Positions 10,676-63,088 of a DNA stretch of 64,000 nucleotides are shown here, in pieces. The notes below the pieces were generated by a model, which ran no database searches, was not told where the DNA came from, and saw only the letters and a program-made list of their open reading frames with translations. The position numbers and the translations under genes are program-made. The stretch spans positions 52,491 through 116,490 of the forward strand of contig JAVXUO010000629.1 in the NCBI GenBank assembly GCA_033065855.1, read 5' to 3'. The stretch's first letter is position 1. Each line of letters begins with the position of its first letter. This DNA comes from Escallonia rubra (taxonomy: Eukaryota; Streptophyta; Magnoliopsida; Escalloniales; Escalloniaceae).

Positions 10676-10730
10676 ATGTGCTATATTACTTTCGTTTTGA
10701 CCTTACAGTGAAGAGCTAGAGATCTTAACA

Positions 10731-12720: not shown

Positions 12721-12812
12721 AAATTAGTATCAGTCAGCTAATCGATAGTGGACACAAAGTTTATTTTGAAGATGACCACTGCCTGATCTGTCATGCCTCA
12801 GATGGAGGTACT

Positions 12813-13850: not shown

Positions 13851-14039
13851 TCCTCAAATGAAGGAGAGTGCTCAACGTCATCTCAAAAAGAAAACACCGA
13901 GACTCAACAGCTTCCCAAGAGCTGTAGATATTCCTCTAGCCACCCGAGGGAGCAAGTAATTGGTAATGCTGAGCGTGGAGTAACAACACGATCTTCGGCA
14001 AATCTTTTATGTGCTAATTTTGCTTTTCTCTCTCAAATA

Positions 14040-24124: not shown

Positions 24125-26877
24125 ATGGAATGGCAGAAATATTATCTGGATGTTGTCTTGGTACCTTTGGGTTTTCTGATGATGATGAGTTATCATGTCT
24201 GGTTATGGCATAAGGTCCAAACACAACCGCTCATGACCATCATCGGAACGAATGCCACCTGCCGGCGCTCGTGGGTCTCAGCAATGATGAAGGTAATACT
24301 ACTACGTACTCCTCCCTCTTGTGCACTGCCAAATGCTCACTTCATTTACTTTCTTATTTGTTTCAACCAGTATAACTCATCTGCTTTACCCTAAAGATGA
24401 ATTTTTCATGCAAGAATCTTTCCCACAAAAGTGTATAACCCATATTGGTCTTCTAGGGGTGTGGGTAACCCACAACTTTCCGTCCTGAAGTAGGAGTGAG
24501 ACACGCCTGATGCATGCGTTCAGTTATACGTAAACGGCTATATTTCAATTTCAAAGCTTCAGTCCATTGTTATAAACGAGTGGATGTTCTGATCAAATAT
24601 GATGCAAGGCAAAACCATAACCATGACCATTTTACACCACCGAGCGTACACTTGATAATGCTTTGGCTGGTTACTTTATTTCCTATTCATATAAGAGAGA
24701 AATTCAGAATTAATTCCTTGGTCGGAGTAATCCAATTCTTCAGTCCATGGTTCTGCGCTTTTAGAACTGTTGGATATACTATATACTGATTTCATAGCCC
24801 TTTTTCCTACTGTGTCAGCCTTTCTAATCAACAGGCCTGGATAGTTAGGACTAGACTTGTCATGGGAATTCTACCGGCATCGATCACAGTTGATGATTGA
24901 CCCTAGGTAAGTAGGTTGGATTTTAGGTCATTAGATTGATAAAATCGTGGAGTGTGTTAAGTGATAATAACCGTACCAATGGCACGCTCCAAAAGAAAAT
25001 TCTTGTACCAAGAAAACTCGCAAAGAAAATTCTACCAAAGCTTTCAATATCTCAAACGTATTTGGGTTGGTAGAACTTTATGATAACATTGGCACAAACG
25101 ACAGGCACACCAAAAGGCAACGCAACAAAGCTAATATAAATTGATTGGCACTAATTTATGGGAGACAACCGCATTAATGTTTGCCTTGTCTGATAGGGCA
25201 CGTTTGTTGGAAACAACTTGTGTTGGTGGCTTCCCACGTAGCATTTTGCACCCGGGGTACGGATATGAACTGTCTTTTCTAACCTGTACACACAATTAGT
25301 CCCGGACATGTGTGATCCATTATGTCAAAACACACAGCACCACATTCAAATTATTGGGATAGATATGCGAATCTCGTATACGAATTTGATTAAAGCAACA
25401 TAAGAAGTATCATATAAAATTCTTTTTTTTTCCCCCATATCAAAGGGATGAAAATGTAAGAATTAGTTGCTTTGAAGTTGTTATTTACTTTATAAGTTTA
25501 AATCGCTTCAGTTTATATGTAAAATATTGTACTAAACATTTTATCTTCACTACAAGGCTCCAACAGCACATGAAACGACAATCCACCACCATAACATGCA
25601 GAAATACACGAAGTCGTATTGAACCATTAGTTATTAGTTAATAAAAGCAGACCAAATATTAAGTTACCATTTCCTCTAGAAATTTTTAAGTTGTTAAAAA
25701 TTAAGTTTAACGATGCATATTCTGCTTATAAATCGTGTGGATTTTGTGCACAAGGTTATCTAAATGTTTAAGAGCTAGCAGCTGATATGGTATGGCGTGA
25801 AGGGCGGTAAAGAGGAGACATATCGTAGAAAACGGTAGATTCTAAGAATGACATTGAACATTTGCTGCAGTTTCACTCTCTGTTATGGGTTTTCTAGGGT
25901 CTCCTTTTGGACAAAAAAAATGAACATAGATTACCTGGATTACTATTACTTTGTCATTTTCAAGTGAGTCATGAATGGTTAGATGTACAACATAAATGCC
26001 TCTGGCACATCAATTTCCTAGGGAACTTCTCGTGGTTTTGCATTTTATGCTCTCAAATGATCAGAAATTTTGGGACAGCATCGGTTGAACTTGGTTGCTA
26101 AAATCTCCCATACATATATATCACGCACAGGTACTACATATTTTCACGGAAAGACCTCCATTTGCCAGATGACAAATGCATCTTGTGGAGAAGTAGATAT
26201 TTTGCCATAACAATTCTTTAGCAGACTAAAGCGGTCTCTAATGCTAAAGTCTCCTTGTGCAAAGCAAAACATGTGATAGGCACAACGAGAGTCAATAAAG
26301 TGAATCATCTTATCATGCGTCTTTTGTGGCAATGCAGGACAATGACAAGAAAAACATTCTGGCAGTGCAAACCCTTCGAAACACAATAATGGGAGCAACC
26401 TTGATGGCCACTACATCCATCCTTCTCTGCTCCGGCTTAGCCGCTGTCATAAGCAGTACATACAGCGTCAAAAAGCTTCTCAATGACGCCGTGTACGGTG
26501 CTCATGGGGAATTCATGGTGGCACTGAAATACGTTACCCTTCTCCTGATCTTCCTGTTTTCATTCCTCTGTCACTCCCTCTCCATTCGGTTTATCAACCA
26601 AGTGAACTTCCTCATTAACTGCCCACAAGACGACCTATTGGGCATAGTAAACCCAGAGTATGTCTCGGAGCTACTAGAAAAAGGATTTGTTCTGAACACA
26701 GTTGGAAACAGACTGTTTTACGCAGCACTTCCTCTCATGCTCTGGATCTTTGGGCCGGTGCTAGTTTTCTTGTGTTCTCTCACAATGGTGCCGGTGCTTT
26801 ACAACCTTGATATTGTGTTCAAAATGCCAAATGGTAAGGTTGATGGCATGGGATCGGGCGAATTTGCTTCTGTGTAA
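24125..26877 (+). CDS. DUF599 family membrane protein (two exons)
   Basis: Exon 1 is 24125-24292 (56 codons, ending ATGAAG|GTAATA). The intron is 24293-26337 and ends TGCAG. Exon 2 is 26338-26877 with stop TAA. Joined in phase 0 they give a 235-residue protein typical of the plant DUF599 family (PF04654), whose function is not established. The N-terminus 'MEWQKYYLDVVLVPLGFL' is the family start. Four hydrophobic segments are visible at about residues 7-27, 73-95, 115-138 and 183-211, which predicts an integral membrane protein. Conserved blocks are 'IIGTNATCRRSWVSAMMK' across the splice site, 'NILAVQTLRNTIMGATLMA' and 'LLNTVGNRLFYAALPL' (here FVLNTVG). There are no stops or frameshifts, in contrast to all neighbouring frames, and no gene lies close by. 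The start was chosen by family length and by the TATA box at 24041. This is the clearest intact host gene in the window. Confidence 0.93.
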
Positions 26878-39721: not shown

Positions 39722-39887
39722 GAGCCGATCCCTATCTACTGGTAGAGAAATATCTATTTCTCCACCACATATCTGGCCGTCCACGTGTACTCGTGGATGG
39801 AACATATTTCACTTTTTTTTGGCTAAAAAAGTGCTAACCGCCCAAAATGCCCCTTCGCGAGACGGGAGATAGTGCAAAATGCCGTGG

Positions 39888-39977
39888 CCGCTACTCTTTA
39901 TAGCGGTTAACTGTCACAAAGAGTAGCGGTCAGGGAGAGGGTCCCACACCCTAACCGCTACACTTTGTAGCGGTTAG
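39888..39977. repeat. Left sub-terminal palindromes (CCGCTA...TAGCGG)
   Basis: Two hairpin-forming palindromes. 39888-39906 has arms CCGCTA/TAGCGG. 39951-39977 has perfect 11-bp arms CTAACCGCTAC/GTAGCGGTTAG around a 5-base loop. A half-site 'gagtagcggt' lies between them. The same motif recurs at 43761-43920, 53933-54126, 54386-54412 and 55213-55236. Confidence 0.85.
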
Positions 39978-40369
39978 ACGGGATAAGACTAATTCCCCAC
40001 CCACTTGCTCTCTCCTTTCACTCTCAATATCTCTTTCTCTCTTTTCCTTTCACGCTCTACATCATCTTCATCCTCCCAATTCACTACTCCATAATCTCCA
40101 CCATTTTTTCCATAACACAAACTCAAGTCCTACGCTAGAAGATCGGTAGAGAGTAGCTAGAAGATTGGTGGAAAAAATTTCTTGAATAGATTCATTTTGA
40201 AGCTTATTTCGAATTTTCTTCAATAAATCCATGTTGATTTCATGAATTGTAACTTCTTTAGGTTTCAATTTATGTTTATTTTAGGCTTTGAATTGTGTCC
40301 TTACTATAAACTGAAATTAGGGTTTTTTTTAGGGATTGAATTAGTGGCTTTTAGGTTTTGAAATTAGGG

Positions 40370-40540
40370 TTTTCTTGAGATTTGAAATTAGGGCTTTTTT
40401 AGGGTTTCAAAATTAGGGCTTTTTTAGGGCTTCAAAATTAGGGTTTTTTAGGGCTTCAAATTAGGGCATTTTTAGGGCTTCAAAATTGGGGCCTTTTTAT
40501 GGCTTCAAAATTAGGGTTTGAAATTAAGGATTTGAGATTA
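40370..40540 (+). repeat. Tandem repeat of about 25 bp (AGGGCTTCAAAATT)
   Basis: Six or so copies of 'ttagggcttttttagggctt'-type units upstream of the PMD gene. The TTAGGG appearance is coincidental and the unit is not telomeric. Confidence 0.75.
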
Positions 40541-40606
40541 TTCCAAGGAATAATCTATTTTTAGGTATTCAAATGTGAATGCTTTTATGGTTTAAAAATT
40601 GGGATG

Positions 40607-40763
40607 TAATTTTGGGTGTTTATTTTAAATTATGTGTTCTTGTTTTAGATTTGGGATGTAATTTTGGGTGTTGATTTTAGATTATGTGTTCATGTTTTAG
40701 ATTCGTGATGTAATTTTGAGTGTTGATTTTAAATTATGTGTTCTTGTTTTAAATTTGAGATGC
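40607..40763 (+). repeat. 52-bp tandem repeat, three copies
   Basis: Three consecutive copies opening 'ttgggatgtaattttgggtg' and ending 'tcttgttttagat', directly upstream of the PMD reading frame. Non-coding, and possibly in the promoter or leader. Confidence 0.8.
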
Positions 40764-40814
40764 AAATAGTATGCACGCTAAGTTGGTTTACAATTATATT
40801 TTTTTCTTAAAGGT

Positions 40815-43480
40815 ATGGAGTTTAACCCTGGACCTTATGATTCATCAATTCTATACGATGATGATGACCATGTCGCGAGGGACGTATTTGAAGGGGTGGA
40901 AAGGGGTGTTCTGAAAACAATTCAAAGCACAAGTCATCTCCAAGAGTGGATACTAAATGAGGAACAACAACATATATCAAATCGTCAGGGTTTTATTTGG
41001 TCATTGTGCTCCCTCATTGGTCTCGGCACGGCGAGTGCCTAATATCCGCTCTAGTTGAGAGATGGAAGAGCGAGACGAACACATTTTACTTTCGGTTTGG
41101 TGAAATGACTATTACATTAGAGGACATCGGCTTTATACTTGGACTCCCATGTTATGGCAGGCCCATTTCTTCGAGTAGGGCGTCTGCAACGGTAGCTCAG
41201 CTTGCTAGGCAATATTTTTCGAGAATACTGCCGGAAGCCATTACATAAAATGGCATCAAGCTTACGTGGTTGAGAGGGCAGTATCGCGTGCTACCTAATG
41301 AATACACTCCTCACGATTTGGAGATGTATACGAAGGCATTCTTGTTGTACATTATTAGAGCTGTATTAATTCCGACGCATTCGAAGAACACGGTGCATCC
41401 GAAGTATATGGTGTTCTTGGATGACCTTGAGGAGGTTCAGTCATATTCAACTGTACTTGCGCACCTATATCAAACACTGCATAAAGCCACGGGAAAAGGG
41501 TGTCAAGTCCATTGCCGCCTGCCTAACTTTATTATAGGTATGAGTACTTATGTTCTTGGTTAACGTGTTAATATGTTCTTAATTACTTACTAATTTCATA
41601 CAATGTTTGACTTCGTATATTTGGTCTTATGAAAGGCTACCCACGGGTCATCCACAGTCACGAGATGATTTTGAAGAGACGTGGCCTAGGTTATTGGCCT
41701 GGGAGCATGGCTTCCCACATACGCCCCGTCGAAAGAGAAGGGTAGACCTTCATCACCATCTAAAGTTCTATTGGGGAGGAGCTAGAAATATTAGAGGCAT
41801 CGCATGTGAAGTGGCAGCCCTATTCAGTGAAGTTGGCAACTTCATGTATCGTATGTGTTGGCAGGTTTGGTTCGGATGCTGCTAATTCATTTTGACACAT
41901 GTGAGTTCCAAATGCCTGATCGCGTAATGAGGCAAGCTGGATATCTACAAGGGATACCAAAACCCGCTATAGACATGTGGCCAAATAGGAAGGGCAGAGG
42001 GCTGAACTTCGACCAACCTAATGCCTTGGATATGTTGTGTGACGAGGTGCAACAGTGGAATACATGGCAAGATACGTACGATAGCCTTGTATCAATGCAG
42101 AACCCTAGCACTAGTATCAAGGAGTATCTAGAATGGTTTCCCAGGGTGATGCGCATGAGGGTAAATCGCCCTTCCCAGGCAAAGAGAACAACATACGAGC
42201 CATGTGCGATTATCGACGAGTTCTAGGCGTTGAACATTCTTCTGCTACAATTTTTATTTGTATTGTTGTCGACCATGATTGCAATGTGTCAGATTATTCA
42301 TATTTTCCATTCATGGTTTTTAGGTTGACATGGGCAGTGAGGTGTTCAAGCAGCTGGAGGAGTTTGATTAGTTTGTCGCGCATGCCCCTGACAATATCAA
42401 AAAGTTCATTAAGATGTACAAGACTGAAGTTCACAACTTCAGTAATGCGTACTGGGGTTACCAGGGGGAGCCGTCTGGTGGTTTGCCAGTTGACGCGCAC
42501 GGTTCTCGGCCCCAGAGTTAGGTGACCCAAGTAACTCCTCAGGAGCACCCACTAATTCGGTTCGAGAAAGGAAAACAGATGAAGGCATTGAGGCCGGTCA
42601 AGCGAGATTGGATTGACAAGCATTACTTTGTGCCTGAGCCGAAGGCTAACAAAGTTACCCATTTCGAACATGGCCGGTTTGTATTACATAGGTCACGAGG
42701 ATATCAGAATGTTGGTGCCGGATACAAATCTTGCAAGTTTTTTCATCGAGCCTACACAGATATGCTTCGAATTAGAGAGCATCAGTATAACCCCTGCATA
42801 GTTGTGAAGATCAACATGTATCCCTCTCATTTCATGTTTCTGGTGCTAGAAAACATGAATAGTTTGACATAATGGAGGAAGAAGAGAGGGAAGAACAAGG
42901 GTGCATGGATACCTTCACCAAACTTGCAGGGCATGCTGAGGTCGGACAATCAATGTCATCCGTCTGAGGCAAACATGATCATGATACCTCATATAAATGT
43001 GAGCCACTTCTTTTTATTGGTTCTGTATCCTATGACGAAATCGATCCAAATCTATGATAGCCTGAGGGAGGATGATCCTGGTCAGCAGCTGAAGAAGATG
43101 TACAAAAAGTACATCAATGCAGTGGTTAGTCTAGAATTTGGAATTAATTTTGCATTATGTCGTATTTGAATCGTTGTTGATGTTTGTTACTCTTTTTGTA
43201 GACTACTATCATTCCACTAGTGATATGCCATCATTTGGGAGAGGGCATCACGAACAATCCTACGATGGATCCTTGGACGGTCAAAATGATACAAGATCGG
43301 CCAAAGCAGTATAACAGTCATGATTGCGGTGTTTATGTGCTCAAGTACTTGGACTACTTATCTCGTTCAGAGGATCTCGAATATAGGACTTGGTCTTAGA
43401 GGGATGCCCCGACATTTAGATATAGTATAGCTTGGGAGCTCAAAAAGGGTGTAGCTAGACGCACTCTTTATTATTATTGA
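40815..43480 (+). pseudogene. Plant mobile domain (PMD) protein with Ulp1/C48-type cysteine protease domain, degenerate
   Basis: The N-terminal part is a PMD: 'ALVERWKSETNTFYFRFGEM', 'TLEDIGFILGLPCYGRPI', then 'WSYERLPTGHP', 'WPRLLAWEHGFP' and 'DTCEFQMPDRVMRQAGYLQG' up to about 42226. The 3' part (42325-43480) is a papain-fold Ulp1-like domain. Its catalytic residues are all present: His in 'NVSHFFLLVLYP', Asp in 'IQIYDSLREDD' and Gln/Cys in 'KQYNSHDCGVYVLKY'. A probable intron runs from about 43122 to 43200 (acceptor 'tttttgtag'). Stops and frame changes, for example near 41043, 41248, 42370 and 42872, indicate a pseudogene unless some lie in introns. PMD proteins and Ulp1 domains both occur in plant MULEs. 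Here the gene sits inside MULE ends and faces a transposase gene, so cargo of the element is the natural reading. One fused gene versus two adjacent genes is not settled. Confidence 0.82.
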
Positions 43481-43758
43481 TGTAATTGATGCTACGAAGT
43501 GTTTATGAAAGTCTTTTTTCACATTAAATTGTTTGATTATTGAATTATATTGAGAATTGTTGGATTGTTGAATTATCTATTGGCTTGTTTGATTATTAGA
43601 TTGCTGGAGGGAATTCACTTCTAGTTTGACATTGTTGTTAGAATTGTGAGATGTATTAACTTGAGATTTGTATTGGATTATTGGATGGAATGTGCAGATT
43701 TGTTTTGGCATAAAGTGAGAGAGAGGGGGAGAGGGAGTTTTGGGGTGGTTTTTCTATG

Positions 43759-43920
43759 TGACCGCTACTAAGAATGGCGGTTAAGAGCCATGGCCAGCAT
43801 CTCTAACCGCTATTGCCTCAAGCAGTTAGAGATGCTGAGAGACCTTTCTAACCGCCAGTCTTTGTAGCGGTTACAGACACTTCTCAGCATCTCTAACCGC
43901 TAGACACAGAAGTGGTTAGT
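43759..43920. repeat. Inter-genic palindrome cluster
   Basis: Four imperfect palindromes between the two convergent genes: about 43761-43782, 43802-43830 (arms TCTAACCGCT/AGCAGTTAGA), 43847-43876 and 43891-43920. A longer motif 'cagcatctctaaccgct' occurs twice directly and once inverted ('gttagagatgctg'), so larger fold-backs are possible. Confidence 0.8.
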
Positions 43921-43949
43921 TTCTTTTTTTTTCCTCTCTCTCTCTTCAG

Positions 43950-44355
43950 GCTTTTTACACTTAGGCACACTAATTAGCCCTTTCTGTGGATTTCAGTGGA
44001 ATTTGAAAAAAAAATCAGTGTCGCCCCTACTCGGGCACACTATAGCGCTTTATTCGTAGCTTTCGGTGAATTTTTTTTTTGTTTTTTCAAGCTTTTTACA
44101 CTTTGGGCACACTAATTAGCCCCTTTTGTGGATTTCAGTGGAATTTGAAATTTTTTTCGTTTTTTCAATGTCGCCCCTCCTCGGGCACACTTTAGGGCCA
44201 ATTTAGTAGCTTTCAGTGATTTTTTTTTTTAGGCTCTTTATACTTTGGGCACACTAATTAGCCCCTTTTGTGGATTTTAGTGGAATTTGATTTTTTTTTT
44301 CAGTGTCACCATCCTCAGGCACACTTTAAGGCCGATTTCGTAACTTTCGGTGAAT
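43950..44355. repeat. Tandem repeat of about 135 bp, three copies
   Basis: Each copy runs 'ctttttacacttnggcacac', 'taattagcccc', 'tggatttcagtggaatttga', a T-rich stretch, 'gtgtcgcccctcctcgggca' and 'gtagctttcggtgaattttt'. It lies at the 3' ends of both convergent genes, just before the FAR1 C-terminus. Confidence 0.85.
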
Positions 44356-45091
44356 GATTAGCCTTATCCCTAAACTGTGCAAGATTAGTTTTATCCCTTG
44401 GGGCTGCGTCAACTAGATACTTGTACCCATCCATTGTTGATGCAGCATCCAACAATAAACCATTCATGATGTTACATAGGTGATTATATCGCAGTGTCTC
44501 AGATTGCTCAAAATCAACTGTAACATGTGGCTTGTAGGGTATGTAACCATGTATTATATTGGCTTGCTTCGTCCACAGATCTAAGATATACTCTTTCAGA
44601 ATTTCACGGGCATTCTTCGCGCTAAGAAACTTTAGCGTGTGTCGACAAAGTATACATTTATGCTAAAACAGTTGACAGTTGCAATTAACAAACCCGGTAT
44701 CTAGACAAACCGATACAGTGAAATGTCTTATGTTCTTCAGAACCGAAGAAGAGCACGTGCGACTATGTCATGCTATATTGATTCGACTTTTGCAGTTCCT
44801 CTTGAAACTGTCTAAACATTTCGTTGGTATGGACTAGAAGCCGCATCAGCTTCCAAAGGTGAAAAAACTATTATGGCTCTTTCTCTATAAAAACTAGCAG
44901 CTTCAGCTTCTCTTTCACGGAAATTTGTTTTGTCAAGGACTTCCTGCATCTCAAGTACAAACTCATTTATAGTTAAGGAATTATCTACGTACCCATCAAA
45001 GAAGGCATTCGTACCTTCGCTTCTTAAGGTCGTAGTCATTCCGGCTGCAAAAACAATTTGGTGTAGGCCCCGACCCATTGTGTTTTAATCT
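44350..45091 (-). pseudogene. FAR1/MULE-type transposase, C-terminal half
   Basis: Minus-strand translation from 45091 gives 'KTQWVGAYTKLFFAAGMTTT', 'RSEGTNAFFDGYVDN', 'LTINEFVLEMQEVL' and 'EREAEAASFYRERA', the block after the catalytic core in FAR1-related and Jittery-type transposases. A SWIM zinc finger C-x-C...C-x-H is readable near 44640-44690 ('NCNCQLF', stop, 'HKCILCRHTLKFLS'), followed by 'LKEYILDLWTKQANII' down to about 44350. Several stops and frame changes are present. Its N-terminal part lies at 53457-53885, beyond the inserted retrotransposon. FAR1-type proteins bind DNA. In MULEs they catalyse transposition, and domesticated copies regulate light signalling. Confidence 0.88.
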
Positions 45092-47218
45092 TTGTTCCCA
45101 ACCTATTCTGCTCGCACCGAAAGGCCCAATGGGGTCCCATTTTGCATGACACATCTGCACAAGCAACAGTCATTTTCAACGCTCAATACCGGTCAAAGCA
45201 TGCACGCTCAAGTCACGTGCACTTCTCACTTTCGTTACGTTACTTCGTCACTCAGAAGTTCATTTTCGCGCAAAGCCTCATGACACTTCGACCGTCGCAC
45301 TTCGCATCTCGCCCATCGGTGCACCATGGCACTTGCCCAAGGAAGTTGGCTTTGGCCTTCCCCTTGGGGTCGGCCTCGGCCTTGGCCTTCCCCTTGGGGT
45401 CGACCTCGGCCTCGGCCTCCCCTTGGGGGTCGGCCTCAGCCTTCCCTTAGCGTTGGCCTTGGCCTCCCCCTAAGGGTTGGCCATGGACTTCCCCTATGGG
45501 TTGGCCTTTGGTCTCCATACTTAACGCATTCACTTCTCTTCAAGGGACCATACATAACTCCGTGACCCCGTCGCTCTGACACAACTGCGCGACCCCCGTC
45601 GCCAGCGTCCGGGCGCTGCACTTCAACACCCTGTTGCGCCGCTGATACAGCCGTGCCCCCAGGCTCTCTATCACACTACCGTGCCCCCGGCACCTTACTC
45701 ACTGCATCGCGCCCATGCGCCACAATCATGTTACATGCCCCCGGGCACCACACTCATTCACCACACCATGCACACCTTGCCTTGGTCGTGGAACATGCTT
45801 CAACCCACTCTCCGGAGTGTGCAACATCCTACGGGGATAGGCGACTCCTCCGGGACACTATCTCCGCCAGGGAGCTCTTCAACTCCCTTTTCGCCAGGTA
45901 GACGGCTCCTCCGGGATACTACCTTGGCCAGTCGGGTAGACGGCTCCTCCGGGATGCTACCTTGACATGTTCCGAGTGCTCTGGCACAAGGACTCACCCG
46001 CGGGGATAGGCGACTCCTCCGGGACACTATCTCTGCTAGGGAGCTCTTCAACTCCCCTTCCGCCAGGTAGACGGCTCCTCCGGGATGCTACCTTGACATG
46101 CTCCGAGTGCTCCGGCACAAGGATTCACCCGCGGGGATAGGCGACTCCTCCAGGACACTATCTCTGCCAGGGAGCTCTTCAACTCCTCTTCCGCCAGGTA
46201 CACGGCTCCTCCGAGATGCTACCTCGGTCAGTCGGGTAGACGGCTCCTCCGGGATGCTACCTTGACACGCTTCGAGTGCTTCGGCATTAGGACTCACCCG
46301 CAGGGATAGGCGACTCATTCGGGACACTATCTCTGCCAGGGAGCTCCAAGTGCTCCGGCACAAAGACTCCCCTTCTGCCAGGTAGACGGTTCCTCCGGGA
46401 TGATACCTTGGCCGGCTAGGTAGACGGCTCTTCCGGGATGATACCTCGGCCCGCGGAATAGGCGACTCCTCCGGGACACTATCTCCGCCAGGGTGCCTAC
46501 GTGACTGGCCTACGTGCTCCGGCACTGGGGGCTTGCGTTGGCACCCCTAGGGACTATGACCCCCGGGTCGCTCTGAGACGGAAGTAGGTCTTCAGAGGGC
46601 ATCGTACCTAGTTCACCTGGCAGTTGGGCGTCGGGTCTTCCCCACCACTGCCAGGCCTGTAGGACTCTGCAAGGGCTTGGATTGGAGGCTAGATCAAGGG
46701 GGTTCTCTGGCCACACCGACGATGTGGGAGCCAGAGTTTCCAGACAGATAGGGCGACGCTGTTCGGGGCAGGCCGATTGAATATGTGATCCGACATTCCG
46801 TGGAACACCGACACTCGTGGACCCCCCAGTGGCGTGTCACTCCCGGGGAGTGCCATGTGTCGGTTAATGACATCATCATCTCAATCTCTATAAATAGAGG
46901 TCTTGAGAATTCATTTGGGACGAAACATTAAGTTGGACATTTTCAGAACATATTTTCACTTTCTCACTCTAGAATCCTAGAGAGAGAAACATACAGGACC
47001 CTAACTCTGGACCTAAGCATCGGACTGTGACTGTCGTCGTGTATTCATCCTGCGATATTGCCCTCGCAGAACTGCCACCCTCAAGCTTTGTCTGGGAAGC
47101 CCTTGGTCTCTGCCCTTGTTCCACCCTTGTTGTGTCTCACATCAACATACTTGGCATCTGACTTGGACTGCATTCCTTGTGGCACCTGCACGTAGGTACG
47201 AACCCACTTTCCTTGGCA
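45092..47218 (+). repeat. TR-GAG 5' LTR with internal tandem arrays
   Basis: Starts (T)TGTTCCCAACCTATTCT and ends CCTTGGCA. It contains a roughly 30-bp array 'ggccttccccttggggtcgg' (about 45350-45480). It also has a longer cassette array (about 45835-46500) built around 'ggcgactcctccgggacact' and 'gacggctcctccgggatgct'. TATA box at 46888. This LTR has more cassette copies and fewer 30-bp copies than the 3' LTR. Confidence 0.9.
46888..46897 (+). promoter_or_regulatory. LTR TATA box
   Basis: 'ctataaatag' lies about 320 bp before the LTR end and is conserved in the 3' LTR (53123-53132). Likely the element promoter. Confidence 0.65.
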
Positions 47219-47224
47219 TTATTT

Positions 47225-47242
47225 TGGCGACTCCGCTAGGGA
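47225..47242 (+). other. Primer-binding site, Tat type
   Basis: 'tggcgactccgctaggga', 6 bases after the LTR end. This is the type used by Tat/Ogre elements, generally attributed to tRNA-Arg. Confidence 0.75.
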
Positions 47243-47243
47243 G

Positions 47244-49047
47244 GTGAGCATCATATTGCAGTCTGCCTATCTTCCACACTCAGTTTCCATGCATATACAA
47301 CAAAGAGTTACGAGGGCTACCAGCCTAGGCCTCATCCGCACCGTCCAAGAAGAGCATCATCTCGACAATCAAGAAGAGACCAGCCACAACCAACTCCAGC
47401 CTCTACCCGAGATGGATGCACCTGATGTGGCCGCAATCGTCAACGCCACAGTCCAACACTTTACTCCTACCATCGCCGAGCTCTAAGACTCTCAATCTTC
47501 TCTCATGGTTGTCATCTTATAAATGCAAAAATCAATCCAAGTCTTGACTTCACAATCACCGACTTCCCGAAGCCTTAGAGCTCTGCACCTTGTGCCCATT
47601 ACTCACCCCGTGTCATCCCAAGCTCCAGGTTTGGCCCCTCCTGCTCATATCCAACCTTCAGGGCCTGGCCTAGTTTTGGACACTACTCAGGTCCCAGTGT
47701 CGCGACCACCGCTGCCTTGGTCCTCCCGGCCCTCGACAGTAGGACTCGGGGCACCTCAGCCCCCGGCGCCACACCTTACCCTTGCTCGAAGCACTTCGGA
47801 GACTCACGAATCAATTGAGATGGAGCCTAACCTGAACATAACTAGTCGAAACCTAAACACAAGTCATTCCACTGGCTTACTCCAGTCGACATTTCCTGAC
47901 GACCAGCCTCCAGCAGCTGACACTACCCATGTGCAAACTATGCCCCAACAAGTTGCTCACCACCACCAACCCTCTCTACCATCGTCATCCCCTCAATGCC
48001 TCAGGTTGCACCGTCTGGGGGCTCTGGTGCTCGGATCATCACGACAGGGCACAAACCCTCACATGCGTCGTACGTCACCAAGCATGACCTTGATGCCCTC
48101 CTTCACCGTCTCAAGCAGTCATCCTTACCCCACTCCCCCTCTAAGCTATCAGGTCATGCTCCCTACTCTGGCAGCCTCGCTACCAAGCCCTACCCTGCCA
48201 AGTACAAACAATCATCCTTCACCTTGTTGAACGGCAAAGAGGGCAACGCCCGCGAGCACCTCACCCATTTTGCTAGCTCCATGGAGCACTACGGGGAGGA
48301 CGACACTTTGAAGCTTCGGGAATTTCACAAGTCCCTGACTGGTCTCACCTACTCTTGGTATCATCAGATTCCCGACAGTACTATCCACTCATGGTCCGTC
48401 ATGGTCCAACTCTTCCTTGACAAATTTCACTATGAGACGGAACGTGTGACCATCGTTGACATTGCCGGAATCCGCCAGAACCCCGGGGAAGACCTCAACA
48501 CCTATGTTACGCGATTTCATCACAAGTGCTTGGAGTGAACTGACTTCAGCAAAGATGAAACCCCTGTACCCATTTGCATCAAGAACATGAAAAACACCTC
48601 AGGGTCTACCTTGAAGACCTCTAGCTTCGGTCCTGGGGACATCTCAAAGAAGCTGCGCGACGCATCTATGACTCCGTCGGTCCGTCAAAGACCCCAAAGC
48701 CCTAACCTCATATTGCCTTGGCCGCAACGATGGAAGCAGCCAGTAACGACGACAACAACCGTAAGCATTAGTCCCAAGGAAGGGACGGGCGCCCTGACAA
48801 GAGAGGGCAACCAATGCCTGCCCCGGAATACGCGTGTGACTTGAAGACTGTTAGAACTCTCCTCGAGGCATGGATCGACGACAATGCCATAACCCTGCCC
48901 AATGTTGACATTGAACCTACCCCGGAAGACTTAGCTCGTCACAACTACTACCCCTATCATCGGAAGGTCGGTCACGGCCTCAAGTGGTGCAGGGGACTCA
49001 AGTTTGTCTTCGCCGACAAGATTGCGTCCGGAGAGCTCAAACTCTAA
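47244..49047 (+). pseudogene. Tat-type gag, frameshifted
   Basis: A Ser/Pro/Thr-rich N-terminal frame (47523-48230) overlaps the core gag frame (47996-48538). The core reads 'LLNGKEGNAREHLTHFASSM', 'LREFHKSLTGLTYSWYHQIP', 'MVQLFLDKFHYETERVT' and 'IRQNPGEDLNTYVTRFHHKC', the retrotransposon gag family of Tat elements. The C-terminal part (48814-49047) reads 'YYPYHRKVGHGLKWCRGLKF' and 'FADKIASGELKL', a degenerate knuckle region with the first Cys missing. Three frames and a stop at 48536-48538 interrupt it. Gag forms the particle and binds RNA. No pol follows, so the element ends its coding capacity here. Confidence 0.85.
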
Positions 49048-51490
49048 GTACGGGACATATGACCCACCCGACCAAGCCTTGGCATGCCTTAGTGCATTTT
49101 CCACACTTGTAATTTTTTCGTTCATTTTACAAGTTTTCATGTACGTCATACCCATGTATCAAGGCATGTTGCCTATCCTTCGTTATCAATGAAGTTACAT
49201 TTTTCAGACTTAGAAAATTTTCAAGCTACATTGCACTTGCACAAGTCTATTGACATCACCCTTCATGACATCACCCACTCCCTTGGGGGCTTCACCCATT
49301 CCCAACCCCTTCGGCCTCACATTGCAACGACTTGGTACGTGGTGCGTAGGGTGGCTCGAGCCGCGCTACTACGGTTGCATCATCATCCTTCATTTACTTT
49401 TCTTGACACTTAGAAAAAATTTCATTTTTTTTCGCAATCGGTCATCGATGATCACCCTCAGTTGTCTCCCTCGGCACCCTTGTTTGAGCTCAACACTTAG
49501 AAAAAAAACTTTCTTCGCTTTTCACAGCCGGGTCACCACCCTCAACGGCCTCCCCTTAGCATCCTTGCCCAAACTCAAAAAAATAAAATTCAACACTTAG
49601 AAAAAATTTCAAGTTTTTCATCTTCTCAACTACTCCCCACATTCATGCTCTCATCACTCCCCCTCACTCTTTCCTCTCTTCCCTCACCATTCTTCTTTCC
49701 ACTTCATACATAATTTTCTCTCTTATGGAAAAGGTTTTCATTCTTCTCTCATCCCACTCCTCTCATTCTCATCTTGTGCATTGTGAAAATTTTCATTGGG
49801 GGCTCCCTCTTTAGTGCTGAATTTTTTTTTATTATATATTATTATTATTATTTACTTATTTAATCCAAAATCCAAATCCATTTGGGCGGGCAGAACCGAC
49901 TGACCCGCGCGACCATTCTCTCTCTGTGCCAGCCCGACCCACTCGAACCCACATTCGACCCAAACCCGACCCGCGTCCCTCCCAGAAAACCCTAAACCTA
50001 ATTTTCTCTCATCTCTTTCTCTTTCCCTTATGCGCCGCCGCAGCCCCTATTGGCGCCGCCACATTTCGGCCTCGGCCTCCAGCCGCTCAGCTCCCCGGCC
50101 GACGTCGCCTTCTCGCCGACGACCCCTCGCCCTCGCCCACACCTCTCACTCTTCTATCTTCTCTCTCTTGCCCCTCGGCCACCCGCGGCACCTCGTCGCT
50201 GCCACCGCCCCCTTCTTCCCCATTCCTTCCACTCCATCTTCCCCCTCCCCTCCCTTTGGCCTCGGCCACCCCCCTCTCCCCCCTTGGCCTCTGCCTCCCC
50301 AACCCCTTCCCTAGGCCGACCCCCCCTTCCTCTCTCCCCTCCGTCTTCCCCTCCCTCTACCCCCTCGGCCTCGGCCCACTTCTCAGTCCCCCCTCTTTCA
50401 CTTCCCCCCTCTCCTTCTCCCCAAGCTCGGCCTCGGCCACCCCTCCCTCTCCCCCCTCGGCTTCGGCCTCCCCAACCCCTTCCCTAGGTCGACCCCTCCC
50501 CCCCTTCAACCTTCGGCCCTCATCCTCCTCCCCCTCCCTTCACCTTCGGCCACCATCAAGGCCACCCATTTCGCCCTTCCCCCAGCCATGGCCATCACCT
50601 TCAAGAACCTCTCCATCTCTTCTTTCCCTTCACCACCTTCGACCCGCACACATTCACCCCATGGCCGATAACCATCACCCACCATCCTCCTCCCACGCAT
50701 GCAAAAAAAAAAAAATCATCATGACGACCAACGCGCGCCTCGCGTCCAACCTTTCACTTCCGTCACAACACCCAAGTCCACCCCACCACCTTCGACCTTC
50801 CCACATTCACATCATGGCCGACATCCAAGGCCGGCAACTTCAAAAAAAAAATTTGCAACATTGACCGTCGTGGACTGCCCCCGCATCGCGATGTCCGATC
50901 GCGCACATCGCGCCCCAACACATTTCATACTTTTTTACACTTAGAAATTTTTTTACAAATTTGATCACGTCCCGTGTGACGACATCCTCCGACATCAACA
51001 TCCTTGGTAGGTGGTGCGCGAGGTAGCTCGAACCACCTACTCCTACTCATTGTTCGACGCTCGTCGCCCGGGCGCTGTCTTTGCGACCCCTGTCGCCAGC
51101 ACCCCGTGCGTCGTCTCCGCGACCCCCGTCACTAGCACCCATGCGATGTCTCCGCGACCCTCGTCGCTAGCGCCCGTGCGCCCTCTCCGCGACGCTTGTC
51201 GCCCATCGCCCGGGTGACGTCTCCGCGACACTCGTCGTCCGTCGCCCGGCTACCATTTACATTCTTGCACCCCTGTGTCCTATCATCGTGCTTTTGTCTC
51301 AACCCCCAACCATCCCAAGGTTTTCTTAGGTGGTGCATGAGGTGGCTCGAGCCACATACTCTTCATCATCATCATGCATTGACGACGTGAGCAACTCGTC
51401 AGCCAAACAACATCAAAATCTTGCTAAGAGTTTATGCGTGCGGTGCCCGCTCGGGTTGCCCCTCTGCGCACACCACACGCAGGGGGCTTA
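49048..51490 (+). other. Non-coding, GC-rich 3' interior of the TR-GAG element, ending in a polypurine tract
   Basis: No protease, RT or integrase motif in any frame. A phrase 'tggtgcgcgaggtagctcga' recurs in variants near 49335, 51013 and 51333. 49950-50650 is very C-rich and gives a spurious 312-codon Pro/Ser frame. The polypurine tract (agggggct, 51481-51488) precedes the 3' LTR. Confidence 0.7.
51066..51250 (+). repeat. GC-rich tandem repeat of about 36 bp, five copies
   Basis: Repeated phrase 'gtctccgcgacccccgtc' followed by 'actagcacccatgcga' variants inside the 3' non-coding part of the TR-GAG element. Confidence 0.7.
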
Positions 51491-53454
51491 TGTTCCCAAC
51501 CTATTCTAGTCACACCCAAAGGCCCACTGGGGTTCCATTTTGCATGACAAATCTGCACAAGCAACAGTCATTTTCAACGCTCACAACCGGTCAAAGCATG
51601 CACGCTCAAGTCACGTGCACTTCTCACTTTCGTTACGTTACTTCGTCACTCAGAAGCTCATTTTCGCGCAAAGCCTCATGACACTTCGACCGTCGCACTT
51701 AGCATGTCGCCCATCGGTGCACCATGGCACTTGCCCAAGGAAGTTGGCTTTGGCCTTCCCCTTGCAGTCTGCCTCGGCCTTGGCCTTCCCTATGGGGTCG
51801 GCCTCGGCCTTAGCCTTCCCTATGGGGTTGGCCTCGGCCTTGGCCTTCCCCTTGGGGTCAGCCTCGGCCTTGGCCTTCCCCTTGGGGTCGGCCTCGGCCT
51901 TGGTCTTCCTTATGGGGTCGGCCTCGGCCTCCCCTTGGGGGTCGGCCTCGGCCTTCCCTTGGCGTTGGCCTTGGCCTTCCCTTGTCGTTGGCCTTGGCCT
52001 CCCCCAAAAGGTTGGCCTTGGACTTCCCCTATGGGTTGGCCTTTGGTCTCCATACTTAACACATTCACTTCTCTTCAAGGGACCATACATAACTCCGCAA
52101 CCCCGTCGCCCGGACACAACTCCGCGACCCCCGTCGCCGACGTCCGGGCGCCGCACTTCAACACCCCGCCGCGCCACTGACACAGCCGTGCCCTCGGGCT
52201 CTCTATCACACTACCGTGCCCCCGGTACCTTACTCACTGCATCGCGCCCATCCGCACAATCATGTTACATGCCCCCGGGCACCACACTCATTCACCACAC
52301 CATGCACACCTTGCCTTGGTCGTGGAACATGCTTCAACCCACTCTCCGGAGTGTGCAACATCCTGCGGGGATAGGCGACTCCTCTGGGACACTATCTCCG
52401 TCAGGGAGCTCTTCAACTCCCCTTCCGCCAGGTAGACGGCTCCTCCAAGATGCTACCTCGGCCAGTCGGGTAGACGGCTCCTCCGGGATACTACCTTGAC
52501 ATGCTCTGAGTGCTCCGGCACAAGGATTCATCCGCAAGGATAGGCGACTCCTCCGGGACACTATCTCTGCTAGGGAGCTCCAAGTGCTCCGGCACAAAGA
52601 CTTCTCTTCTGCCAGGTAGACGGCTCCTCCGGGATGCTACCTTGGCCGGCCAGGTAGACGGCTCCTCCGGGATGCTACCTCGTCCCGCGGAATAGGCTAC
52701 TCATCTGGGACACTATCTCCGCCAGGGTGCCTGCGTAACTAGCCTACGTGCTCCGGCACTGGGGGCTTGTGTCGGTACCCCTAGGGACTATGACCCTCGG
52801 GTCACTCTGAGATGGGAGCAGGTCTTTGGAGGGCATCGTGCCTAGTTTACCTGGCAGTTGGGCGTCGGGTCTTCCCCACCGCTGCCAGTCCTGTGGGACT
52901 CTGCAAGGGCTTGGATTGGAGGCTATATCAAGGGGGTTCTCTGGCCACACCGACAATGTGGGAGCCAGTCTTTCCAGACAGACAGAGTGATGTTGTGCGG
53001 GGCAGGCCGGTTGAATATGTGATCCGACAGTCCATGGAACACCGGCACTCGTGGACCCCCCCAGTGATGTGTCACTCCTGGGGAGCGCCACGTGTCGTTT
53101 AATGACATCATCATCTCAATCTCTATAAATAGAGGTCTTGAGAATTCATTTGGGACGAAACATTAAGGTTGGACATTTTCAGAACATATTTTCACTTTCT
53201 CATTTTAGAATCCTAGAGAGAGAAACATACAGGACCCTAACTGTGGACCTAAGCATCAGACTGTGACTGTCGTTGTTTATTCATCCTGCGCCGTCGCCCT
53301 CGCAGCACTGCCACCCTCAGGCTTCGTCTGGGAAGCCCTTAGTCTTTGCCCTTGCTCCACCCTTATTATGTCTCACATCAACATACTTGACATCTGACTC
53401 GGACTGCATTCTTTGTGGCACCTTCACGTAGGTACGAACCCACTTTCCTTGGCA
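51491..53454 (+). repeat. TR-GAG 3' LTR
   Basis: Same start and end as 45093-47218. The 30-bp 'ggccttccccttggggtcgg' array is expanded here (51745-52030), while the 'ctcctccgggatgct' cassette array is contracted (52370-52700). A 319-codon frame across the array is a by-product of the repeat period. TATA box 'ctataaatag' at 53123-53132. Confidence 0.9.
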
Positions 53455-53456
53455 TC

Positions 53457-53885
53457 AATCTCGTACAATTCTTTCAACCTTTCATGATTGTGCAAAGAGT
53501 AGCACCCATTAACTTAGCCCTACTCTCTTCAAACACGTCGACCGTCAACGATTTCTTGACACATGTATTAAAGTCACTCTTGAATGTCGGATGATTTGCA
53601 TATACATTGTGAAACCGTTCGGGATATTTGTTGCTTATGTGCCATGAGCACAAACCATGGTGAGTATCTGGCAAGGACTTAGCGATTGCGTTTTACATTG
53701 TCAGATCTTGGTCGGTGATGATGGTTTTTTGGGGAATATGATACATTGCTTCAAGCCACGTTTCAAATAACCAAGTAAATGATTCCTCTGTCTCATCCCG
53801 AAGTAGGGCAAAGTCAAACAATAATTATTAGTAGTGATGGTTCACCCTGGTAAATGGAGCAAAAGGCATAAAGTACTTATTTGTG
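53457..53885 (-). pseudogene. FAR1/MULE-type transposase, N-terminal half of the remnant
   Basis: Minus-strand reading from 53885: 'YFMPFAPFTRVNHHY', two stops, 'FALLRDETEESFTWLFETWL', 'IITDQDLTM' (second catalytic Asp of the DDE core), a stop, 'NAIAKSLPDTHHGLCSWHI' and 'FKSDFNTCVKKS'. A frameshift then restores 'LKELYEI' at the insertion site. The FAR1 DNA-binding domain and the first catalytic Asp upstream of 53885 are absent. It continues at 45091 downward. Confidence 0.88.
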
Positions 53886-53932
53886 ATTAATGAGAGAAAG
53901 GAGAGAGAAAGAGAAAAAAAGTAAGAAGACTA

Positions 53933-54126
53933 GTCCACTACATAATGTAGCGAATGAAAGAAATGAGAGAGAAAGAGAAAAAAAAGTCAGAACATTAATG
54001 AGAGAAAGGAGAGAGAAAGAGAAGAATGGTCAGAAGACTTGTCCGCTACATAATGTAGCGGATGGGCTCCTTTTAAGTTGGAGGGTACTTTTGTCAAAAA
54101 ACCGTCCGCTACAAAATGTAGCGGAC
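53933..54126. repeat. Right sub-terminal palindromes (TCCGCTACA...TGTAGCGGA)
   Basis: Three palindromes: 53933-53952, 54042-54062 (arms TCCGCTACAT/ATGTAGCGGA) and 54104-54126 (arms GTCCGCTACA/TGTAGCGGAC). They are separated by duplicated (GA)-rich stretches ('gagagaaaggagagagaaag'). They mirror those at 39888-39977 near the other end of the MULE. The 162-codon ORF across them is not a gene. Confidence 0.85.
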
Positions 54127-54235
54127 AGACTTAAAAAACGTAAAAAAAGATCTAGACCGTTCATAGATCGCGTATGGATGACCAGATCGTGCTGGCAACT
54201 TAACTCAAGTTGCCTGTGCGGTCAACGGATCAGCT

Positions 54236-54238
<3 letters not shown>

Positions 54239-54320
<82 letters not shown>
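54239..54320. repeat. (TA)n(TG)n microsatellite
   Basis: About 22 TA dinucleotides followed by about 18 TG dinucleotides, located exactly between two MULE-type ends. Confidence 0.95.
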
Positions 54321-54324
<4 letters not shown>

Positions 54325-55351
54325 CCGTCCGTCCACGTGTTATTGTGGGCAACCCAGATTAATTTTCTTTTTAGCTAGAACTCGCCTAACCGCTACTCTT
54401 TGTAGCAGTTAGCTTTTTTTCCAGATCTACCCTCCCTCACTCTCATTCTATTCTATTTCACTTTCATTCTGCACTTTTCATTTTGTTGTTCTTCTCTCTC
54501 TCTCTCTCATTTTTGTCATTGCATCACCTTCCTGTTAACAACCTTTGATCAATATGTTGCAAGCTCTTCATTACCCACCATTTGGTATTTTCTTACAATG
54601 AATCCTACCGGCTCTTACTAATCATATACATCCAGAATTGCTAATCTAACCTAATGAAACAAAAAACCATTTGCACGCAAAAACCCCTAAACAACCAAAG
54701 AGACAATCACAAAGCATAGACACGAAAATGAACAGAACTTGAACTCGGCGTCGACCACAGAAAAAAAAAAAAGAAAAAAATCAAAGGCATGTAATACATC
54801 TAAAAAAAGATAATCTCAATCAACAATTTCAAAAACCAAAACAAAAAAAAAAAGTGGATAATCTGGACGAAAATATCTGGGGTTTGTGAAACCACAATCT
54901 CAATCCACAAAAAAGGGACATGGATAAGCTTTAAGGATCTGGGCAAAGGGCAGATGCGGTGGCAACAATGGCAGCATGGGCGATGGCCAGATGCAGCGGC
55001 GATTGTGGCGTCATGGGCGATGGCCAGATGTGACGGTGGTGGCATGGCGAAGTGCAAGTGCAGCGGTTGTGGCTGGGAGAAAGACGACGACGGAAAAAGC
55101 TTTGGAGAGAGAGAAAAAAATTTGGTAGACAGATACAGAAAGAGAGAAAGAGATGTTAGACAAATATAAGAGAGAAAGAGGGGGGAAGGGGGGACATTTT
55201 CGGTACAAACACTGACTGCTACTCTTTGTAGCGGTCAAGCGAATTAGAATTAAATAAAGAGTAATATGAGCCATCCACGATCACAGGTGGAAGGCCGGAG
55301 GACAGTTAGAAAATTAGTGATTTCTCCAGCTTTAGATAGGGATCGACACCC
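54325..55351. mobile_element. Short MULE derivative related to the large element
   Basis: Reversed from 55351 it reads GGGTGTCGATCCCTATCTAA and, further in, 'ggccttccacctgtgatcgt', close to the left end of the large element ('ggccgtccacgtgtactcgt'). Its left side (54325-54350, 'ccgtccacgtgttattgtgg') starts inside the same TIR, so the outermost 45 bp or so are missing. Palindromes at 54386-54412 and 55213-55236 flank a non-coding interior. It could also be the true right end of the large element with an internal duplication. Confidence 0.6.
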
Positions 55352-61174: not shown

Positions 61175-63088
61175 TGTTGGTATCGGGCCCCGAGCTCCCC
61201 CAATTTGGGTACCCTCTCCTTGCCCCTTAGTCTCACCTCTCATGGGGGCTCCTTGCCTCCTCCCTTGGTATCTCCACTCCTTGGGAGTTCCATGCTCCAT
61301 GACCTAGGTCAACACAGCCGGGCGTGATGAAGACCGACCGTGCTCAAGCACCATCTCCGTATTACGTGCCCCTGGCACAGTGCTGTCATTATGAACGTGC
61401 AGTTTGACTATTCCTGACAGACGTTTTTGCGCTACGCCCCCTGACATTACAACATTTACAATGCCCGAACCCTGCGACTGCTCGACCGCGCCCGAGCGCC
61501 TATCACTGTTACCCTAAAGTGTCGTCTCTGAGCTACGTGCCATCGGTACCATGCCCTTCACCACGCCCAAGCGCCGCCTCACTCCATACAAGCCCCGACA
61601 CTCCGTCCCTCGACTACGACCATGTGATGTCGCGGTGTTATGTGCTCTAGCATAACACTTAGTGGACGAGCCCCACGTCGTCTTTATTGAGCGTGTCCCT
61701 AGCACCCCATACAACCGGACGTGCTATGCACCCCCCCCCCCACCACCACTTATACATTCGCACCCCAGGAAATCTGTCACACTATCATGGTCCTGGCATT
61801 GGTCCATCTCTTCACCACACCATCTGTACCTCGCATTGGCCGTGGAACATGCTTTGACCCACTCTCCAGAGCATGCAGCATTCATCGGCGTAGGTGACTT
61901 TTCAGGACAATACATCAGCCCCTCGAGTAGACGACTCCCCCGAGACACTATCTCCGCCAAGAAGCTTCGAGTACTTCAGTACGAGGACTCACTCTGGCAA
62001 AGTTGGCGATTCCTCTGGGACACTACCTTGGTGATTCGGAGTGCTCCAACACAAGGACTCCTTAGAGGATAAGGGACTAATCTGGAACATTATGTCTGCC
62101 AGGGTGTTCTGAGTGCTCCCACACAAGGACTCCCCTTCGCCAGGTAAGCAACTCCTCCGCGACACTACCTCGACCCTACCAGATAGGCAACTCCTCCTGG
62201 ACACTACCTCTGTATATCGGGTAGGTAACTCATTCAGGATTCTACCTCAGCCCGTCGAATAGATGACTCCACCAGGATTACAATTTTGGTGCGCTCCAAG
62301 TGCTTCGGCACAAGACAAATGCGAGATAGGCGATCCATCGAGACACTATCTATGCCAGGGTGTCTACAACTAGTCTGCATGCTTCGGCATTTGGTGCTCT
62401 TCATCGACAGCCCCGGGGACTATAACCTTGGGTCACTCCGAGATAGGAGTAGGATACCGAAAGGCATCGCACCTAATTTGCCTGGTAGCTAGGGGTCGGC
62501 CCTTCACCACCTCTATCAGGTTTTTCGGCGTCTCTCGACCCCCCTGTAGGACTCAAGAAGGGCTATGGACTGGTGGCTGTATCAATGAATTTTCTGGACA
62601 CAACACGACTATGTGAGCCAGTCTTCCCAGACATAAAGAACGAAGTTATGCGGGGCAGGCCGGGTGAATATGGGATCCAATAGTTTATGTAGCACTGGCA
62701 TTTGTGCCCCCACCCCCCAGTGAGGTGTCACTTCCACAGAGAGCCACATGTCGCTTAATACATCACCTTCCCAACCTCTATAGTGGCCCTGAAAGTTCAT
62801 TTTCAGAAGATTGGTATTCATTTGCATATTTCGCTTTCTCACTCTAGAATCCTAGAGCTAGAGAGAAGAGAGAAAGCTCCTAGACTTCAGACCCTGACTC
62901 TGGACCTAACCATTAAACTCGTGGCTTTGTCGCGTGTTCACCCAGAGCCTGCGCCTAGGAAGCCTTAACCTAGGCCCTTGCTCCGGACCTTCATCCTTGC
63001 ATTGTCCCACAAGATCATACTTAATTTCTGCCTCAAATTCCATTTCTTGTGGCACTTCCACATGTACAGCAAACCGATTTTGTTGGCA
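61175..63088 (+). mobile_element. Solo LTR related to the TR-GAG element
   Basis: Starts TGTTGGTATCGGGCCCC and ends 'ttttgttggca'. The same landmarks occur in the same order as in the 45092 and 51491 LTRs: 'ccgtggaacatgctt', 'gacccactctccagagcatg', 'gggacactac', 'gcggggcaggccg', 'agaatcctagag' and 'gacctaa'. It is strongly diverged from them. No internal region or second LTR is present, and no clear 5-bp duplication ('ctaag' left, 'tcaac' right). Confidence 0.75.

Follow-up and report, generated by a model that had tools for sequence, protein, structure and literature searches.

A putative PMD-Ulp1 gene among decayed Mutator-like elements of Escallonia rubra, and the palindromic motif repeated around it

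The window examined here, a stretch of 64,000 bases from Escallonia rubra contig JAVXUO010000629.1, contains no N, has a GC content of 42%, and was judged from its genes to be plant DNA. Between positions 39722 and 55349, it carries the remains of Mutator-like elements (MULEs), among them a broken plus-strand gene with a plant mobile domain (PMD) and an Ulp1 protease domain and, in convergent orientation, the remnant of a transposase of the FAR1-RELATED SEQUENCE (FRS) type. A 19-bp palindrome, CCGCTAC-N5-GTAGCGG, which a preliminary description of this region did not report, is repeated around the genes, and it is from this motif that the interest of the locus comes. The best explanation overall, to which we give a probability of about 0.42, is a decayed nest of MULEs in which the PMD-Ulp1 product may have acted as an anti-silencing factor resembling the VANC proteins of the Arabidopsis VANDAL elements. 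The coding parts, and the long terminal repeat (LTR) retrotransposon lodged among them, are located as follows.

40815 (ATG) to 43480 (stop), plus strand: PMD-Ulp1 gene, whole (PF10536 and PF02902).
40815 to 42223, plus strand: PMD-coding part of this gene (PF10536, translation).
42324 to 43480, plus strand: linker and Ulp1 (Peptidase_C48) exons (PF02902; SENP2 match, 6.6e-6).
44360 to 45090, minus strand: C-terminal part of the FRS-type transposase in broken frames, recognized by eye from the translation (AAGMTTTLRSEGTNAFFDGYV; CRHTLKFLSAKN) and by position.
45093 to 53455, plus strand: LTR retrotransposon inside the transposase gene (LTRs 45093–47219 and 51491–53455; gag 47921–48538).
53456 to 53870, minus strand: catalytic part of the MULE transposase, FRS type (PF10551, 1.4e-21; FAR1-RELATED SEQUENCE matches; tree).

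In the Pfam scan, four separate open reading frames (ORFs) of the PMD-Ulp1 gene matched PF10536 (E = 5.2e-20, 1.1e-7, 0.093, and 3.8e-7), and the last exon alone matched PF02902 (E = 3.3e-9). When the gene was read through as 775 residues with X at the stops, the values were 5.9e-46 for the PMD, which places it in the Plant mobile domain family, and 1e-13 for Ulp1. A model in which both domains belong to one gene is supported by the succession of the exons, their single orientation, and these strong read-through matches; introns probably lie at about 41555–41636 in the PMD part and about 43125–43201 in the Ulp1 part, and the two domains would have stood on a single transcript. The gene is dead, because it contains five in-frame stops (41246 in the PMD part; 42369, 42519, 42870, and 43397 in the linker and Ulp1 part) and frameshifts, which were recognized by eye from the translation near 41000 and 41840 in the PMD part. 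The decayed plus-strand PMD/Ulp1 coding region of the preliminary description is thus borne out.

The same description regarded the Ulp1 His, Asp, Gln, and Cys as all retained, and saw in this a hint of past selection on SUMO-protease-like activity. The Gln and Cys align with those of human SENP2 (PQQLNGSDCG / PKQYNSHDCG), whereas the other two, probably the His in SHFFLLVL and the Asp in IYDSL, are placed only by motif pattern, both inside the matched Ulp1 domain. Under neutrality, the probability that all four residues are kept by chance is 0.59, 0.49, and 0.37 for 5, 7, and 10 stop-creating changes, respectively, and 5 is the better figure because two of the seven stops counted sit at exon edges. 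Since the neutral probability is 0.4–0.6, the kept residues are no evidence of selection, and that claim falls.

The transposase remnant at 53456–53870 identifies a Mutator-like element through its MULE transposase domain, and its core is FRS-like, that is, of the Jittery/FAR1 type. Three of its 21 database matches are named FAR1-RELATED SEQUENCE by a source (Rubus, 48% identity; Citrus, 44%; Juglans, 50%), and the best two (62% and 61%) are metagenome contigs. In a tree of 17 rows, the remnant groups with these two metagenome sequences (99/99), far from the transposase of a PMD-bearing Setaria MULE, whose own branch is very long. The front half (N-terminus) is absent and the sequence is non-coding from 53871; in a scan limited to four stop-to-stop pieces upstream of 53870 and the ORF at 53887–54378, no Pfam family was matched, the FAR1 DNA-binding domain included. 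The piece at 44360–45090 has no Pfam match by itself. The convergent minus-strand FAR1-type transposase described earlier therefore stands as to domain and orientation, but it is not a single stretch, and its FAR1 DNA-binding part was not found.

The gene is split by the retrotransposon, which occupies about 8.4 of the 14.5 kb between 39722 and 54236. Over an alignment of 1856 columns, which takes in a few flanking bases, the LTRs share 91.9% identity (Kimura two-parameter distance 0.087), and this presumably corresponds to 3.3 to 6.2 million years at two substitution rates that we assume. The pentamer AATCT occurs on both sides of the insertion, separated by a single base from the LTR on the left and by one or two bases from that on the right. 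The gag gene matches PF03732 (3.3e-8), and no reverse transcriptase or integrase was matched in the 8 ORFs scanned; the retrotransposon is apparently non-autonomous. Its internal region has long C/T-rich stretches, and a fragment at 61811–62943 is 68–70% identical to its LTR.

Several sequences resembling MULE ends flank the genes.

39722 to 39819, plus strand: left MULE end (GAGCCGATCCCTATCTA...; inverted match 55345–55252).
54137 to 54236, minus strand: second MULE end (GAGCTGATCCG...; terminal decamer), the right end of the preliminary description.
54238 to 54321, unstranded: (AT)24 (TG)18 microsatellite, which fills the space between two MULE ends.
54320 to 54410, plus strand: partial left-type end with a palindromic site at 54390 (local alignment scores).
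55216 to 55349, minus strand: third end (GTGTCGATCCCTATCTA...) with a palindromic site at 55216, the best inverted partner of 39722.

The ends were compared by local alignment of 115-bp segments with 500 shuffles. The 39722 end scored 44 against the inverted 55349 end, a value reached by none of the 500 shuffles (null score 9.3 ± 1.6; 73% identity over 94 bp, E = 2.5e-8), whereas its score against the 54236 end was 13.5, reached by 3 of the 500. The TIR-like (terminal inverted repeat-like) ends claimed earlier at 39722 and 54236 nevertheless share the decamer GAGCYGATCC, which occurs without mismatch nowhere else in the window. The partial end at 54320 scored 23 against the left end and 20.5 against the 55349 end, and no shuffle reached either value. 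To judge from their sequences, the three full ends and the partial one all derive from related MULEs. The microsatellite occupies the place expected for the first 50 bp or so of one of the two ends beside it.

The palindrome sites and neighboring repeats are distributed as follows.

39888 to 39973, unstranded: three palindromic sites (39888, 39911, 39955) in the left non-coding region.
43757 to 43941, unstranded: 45-bp tandem array of four units, with motif copies at 43762, 43807, 43852, and 43897 (2, 4, 2, and 3 mismatches, respectively).
43945 to 44353, unstranded: tandem repeat of about 141 bp in three copies, between the two genes.
53935 to 54124, unstranded: palindromic sites 53935, 54043, and 54106 of a second subtype, the first two within a 71-bp direct repeat.

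Three features of the motif were found. One is its concentration: with CCGCTACNNNNTGTAGCGG as the query and up to 3 mismatches on both strands of the whole window, 20 strand-matches were obtained at 11 sites, all within 39888–55234, while the shuffles gave an expectation of 0.45 and a largest value among 100 of 3. The heptamer CCGCTAC has 13 copies in the window, 12 of them inside the element region (expected, 2.58), and when only the 14 arm bases are counted and up to 3 mismatches are allowed, 11 sites fall inside and 1 elsewhere. Another is its restriction to non-coding DNA: none of the 12 palindromic sites found there at up to 4 mismatches lies in PMD-Ulp1 or transposase coding sequence, and in a count of 7-mers, the palindrome arms are the top three words not of low complexity, with 10, 10, and 12 copies in the 3.3 kb of non-coding element DNA against 0, 0, and 1 copies in the 47 kb outside the element. 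The P-values for the motif are descriptive, because the regions were picked after the motif had been noticed, and the counts describe this one locus. The last feature is the occurrence of two subtypes, differing by one base pair beside the core. One comprises nine sites, located at the left end, within the array, at 54390, and at 55216, in which one arm or both contain ACCGC or GCGGT, in some cases with the one-base variant GCAGT/ACTGC in the other arm. Both pentamers are absent from the three sites near 54236, two of which read TCCGC/GCGGA. The 71-bp direct repeat near 54236, with 90% identity, holds two of the three sites there. The 141-bp repeat, which directly adjoins the transposase C-terminus, is without the palindrome.

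With three full ends and one partial related end present, the genes can be assigned to ends in more than one way, and a single element holding both genes has somewhat less than an even chance. The main element would start at 39722, most likely end at 55349, and carry the PMD-Ulp1 fusion gene; the convergent transposase would be its own, or that of a related element ending at 54236, and would later have been split by the retrotransposon. If the latter is the case, a transposase-bearing element with its right end at 54236 was inserted into, or joined by deletion to, a PMD-Ulp1 element spanning 39722–55349, and the two genes were never in one element. This arrangement, which falls somewhat short of an even chance, is favored by both the TIR pairing and the motif subtypes, which separate 39722, the array in the middle, 54390, and 55216 from the part around 54236. 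In addition, the region 43701–44000, where the motif array lies, is similar in both orientations to the leftmost 280 bp (22.5 each, reached by 0 of 500 shuffles), as terminal-region remains would, although the shared palindromes alone may explain this. On the other hand, a left end of the second element was not found at 43481–44359, a deletion is required, no target-site duplication is seen, and the 54320 end is left unexplained.

The alternative with both convergent genes in one MULE at 39722–54236 must suppose a non-TIR structure or very short end similarity, as in VANDALs, a later retrotransposon insertion, and a separate small neighbor at about 54320–55349, of which 54320 and 55349 could be the TIRs. 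It is a tentative reading with the odds moderately against it. The decamer, perfect at 39722 and 54236 and nowhere else, agrees with it, as do the commonness of antisense PMD genes in plant MULEs in the table of PMC6446971 and the position of the outermost palindrome, 112 bp inside 54236, similar to the 115 bp inside 55349 (166 bp inside 39722). Against it stand the far better fit of the left end to 55349, the different motif subtypes at 39722 and 54236, and, again, the lack of a target-site duplication. No end-like sequence was detected between the PMD-Ulp1 gene and the transposase, which speaks against splitting the locus there. Of the earlier claim of one element uniting all of these parts, the MULE remains, the PMD-Ulp1 gene model, and the convergent FRS transposase hold, while the unity itself is possible but unproven.

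The closest relatives of the PMD are three Escallonia rubra proteins (37–42% identity over 38–61% of the query). A tree of 15 rows groups the window PMD, on a long branch, with these three proteins (100/99), beside MAIL2-like ones. The suggestion that the locus represents a type ancestral to domesticated genes of the PMD and FAR1 kinds finds no support in this grouping, and we reject PMD-Ulp1 as an ancestor of host genes because nothing at the locus dates it; the parts of PMC5418596 consulted propose that MULEs captured host PMDs and favor Gypsy retrotransposons as the origin of host PMDs. The window linker gave no alignment beyond chance with an Escallonia PMD protein, the PMD profile gave nothing meaningful against PDB (2 rows, best E 0.22), one PMD piece had no match in a viral contig collection, and an Rfam scan of the window gave nothing at the gathering threshold. 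The PMD read-through also matched DUF1985 (1.7e-4, 22 bits, profile positions 9–128 of 141), far less strongly than the PMD profile. Among 13 PMD homologues (P0001–P0013), DUF1985 weakly matches 8 at E up to 1 (best 0.0019) and DUF7745 weakly matches 5. These matches point to a relationship between PMD and DUF1985 but do not prove it, and they hint that PMD, DUF1985, and DUF7745 may form a single superfamily of plant domains associated with transposons.

In VANDAL21 and VANDAL6, according to the portions seen of PMC5735166 and PMC10398659, VANC proteins bind to short, often tandemly repeated motifs in the non-coding DNA of their own elements and remove silencing marks. They carry DUF1985 and DUF287 (figure legend of PMC5735166), and some carry Ulp1 and correspond to the KIU genes, according to the part of a review consulted (PMC13317346). 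At the present locus, the tandem 45-bp array and the motif-bearing 71-bp direct repeat resemble the VANC target regions shown in PMC5735166. A role of PMD-Ulp1 as a sequence-specific anti-silencer is favored because of this VANDAL21/VANDAL6-like arrangement and the match between PMD and DUF1985. The protein would be an accessory factor of the VANC kind, whose N-terminal PMD, or a partner, may recognize CCGCTAC-N5-GTAGCGG; the starts of the two palindrome arms are separated by 12 bp, or roughly one turn of the helix, which would fit a dimer. At the subterminal and tandem sites, Ulp1 might then free local silencing factors of SUMO or a related modifier; the non-coding DNA of the element would thereby stay unmethylated, and the transposase would be expressed. 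Counter-silencing by PMDs borne on transposable elements has been suggested earlier (PMC8616336 and PMC5418596, each seen in part).

Several results weigh against this interpretation. It has a single locus behind it. The DUF1985 match is below the Pfam cut-off of 35.1. PF02902 matched none of the 13 PMD homologues scanned, the three Escallonia proteins included, and the linker-Ulp1 half had no match at 0.01 among 848 candidates from the protein database, by a method that depends on words of 5 residues in common. DNA binding gains no support from the AlphaFold model of the PMD relative P0002, because its mean pLDDT (predicted local distance difference test) is only 49. For 39722/54236 and 39722/55349, the best target-site duplication matches 6 of 9 positions, within the null, although a duplication may have decayed; a 9/10 duplication for 54246/55349 was discounted as AT-repeat. 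When up to 4 mismatches are allowed in the 14 arm bases, 12 sites lie inside and 7 elsewhere (one of the seven in the retrotransposon), and these loose copies mean nothing, because 7 outside are no fewer than the chance value of 6.1 (null mean per window). Finally, since its core is common to the ends of the two subtypes, the motif could go with the transposase and not with PMD-Ulp1.

This last point leads to the main rival of the anti-silencer reading. In plant DNA transposons, transposase binding to subterminal repeats is common, and drawing on this, the palindromes can be regarded as subterminal transposase-binding sites, with PMD-Ulp1 as a passenger or a gene with some other role. Seven sites lie 112–301 bp inside three ends (three at the left, three at 54236, and one at 55349), as such sites would. 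The 45-bp array does not suit this explanation: it follows the Ulp1 stop at a distance of 280 bp, is 4 kb away from the left end, and adjoins no recognized end. We consider the explanation possible, with the odds moderately against it. Pack-MULE transduplication, by which a host PMD gene and a host Ulp1 gene would have been captured and be functionless in the element, is unlikely: MULEs have captured host PMDs and Ulp1 domains (PMC5418596 and PMC13317346, seen in part), but here a single gene with probable introns can be read across two unrelated domains, and several plants have MULEs in which PMD and Ulp1 turn up again (PMC6446971 and PMC2528002, likewise).

Under the anti-silencer reading, the locus might further represent a second VANC-like system outside the Brassicaceae VANDALs, in which PMD-Ulp1 recognizes the tandem palindromic motif of its MULE and the PMD/DUF1985/Ulp1 accessory genes are one anti-silencer family from or towards which silencing PMD proteins of the host, MAIN and MAIL1 among them, evolved; this broader proposal we hold to be unlikely. 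In Arabidopsis, PMD proteins silence transposons. A promoter motif, 'DOWN', has been linked to MAIN/MAIL1 without shown binding (PMC7156037, seen in part), and the portions of the literature consulted name no DNA sequence as a proven target of PMD proteins. A concrete candidate is offered by the locus, in which a PMD-Ulp1 gene is carried by a MULE and one palindrome occurs again and again in the non-coding DNA of that element. If relatives keep the gene and the motif together, PMD targeting would become directly testable by binding assays.

Elsewhere in the window, Copia-type retrotransposon pieces occur at 10729–14834 (gag PF14223, 1.8e-25; reverse transcriptase PF07727, 2.2e-55), and an ORF with DUF599 at 26299–26877 (PF04654, 1.1e-58) is probably part of a host gene.

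Comparison with known systems shows which parts of the locus have precedents. No PMD-Ulp1 MULE is described among the literature matches listed, subscription papers and Repbase being outside the coverage; within the portions of these sources seen, neither a PMD-Ulp1 gene beside an FRS-type transposase nor the palindrome was met, the palindrome letters not having been used as a query. According to the part of PMC7156037 seen, a protease domain can be joined to genic PMDs, in fusions that are not specified further, and the Amaranthus EPSPS cassette holds plant-mobile-domain genes in six copies and a single Ulp1 gene, not joined (PMC5240378, in part). A PMD is also carried by MULEs in grasses and Amborella, where PMD-C is joined to the transposase (PMC5418596, in part; the Setaria sequence P0014 is an example); there, however, the two make one fused protein, and the Setaria transposase is far from that of the locus. 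Jittery shares the FRS-like transposase core, with FAR1 at the transposase N-terminus, but its group has one ORF and no PMD listed in the table of PMC6446971, it is without sequence homologous to mudrB according to the part of PMC9569675 seen, and the FAR1 part is missing at the locus. MUDR, MUDRAVI2, and MULE-Solanaceae_1 resemble the locus in having a PMD gene antisense to the transposase, as the table of PMC6446971 lists for most MUDR-group MULEs and others; they differ in that no Ulp1 is listed there and their groups are not Jittery/FAR1.

The KAONASHI-MULEs (KI-MULEs) and the Ulp1-MULEs of melon, rice, and grape have an Ulp1 domain, encoded in KI-MULEs in the orientation opposite to the transposase gene (PMC2528002, in part). 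Ulp1 also lies opposite the transposase at the locus, whether within one element or in two; the differences are that no PMD fusion is mentioned in the portion of that paper seen and that KI-MULEs have mudrA instead of an FRS-type transposase. The VANDALs with VANC or KIU genes resemble the locus as MULEs with an accessory gene, with Ulp1 in some of them, degenerate TIRs, and non-coding DNA in which a short motif recurs, some of its copies in tandem (PMC5735166, PMC10398659, and PMC13317346, in part), and PMD and/or DUF genes are listed for half the members of the group in the table of PMC6446971. The VANC motifs are YAGTATTAY or AGTTGTCC, whereas that of the locus is a 19-bp palindrome; the locus, known from sequence alone, has PMD rather than DUF1985/DUF287 as its main match, and an FRS-type transposase. 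PMD genes in opposite orientation to a MULE transposase are thus already known, and so are Ulp1 genes in that arrangement.

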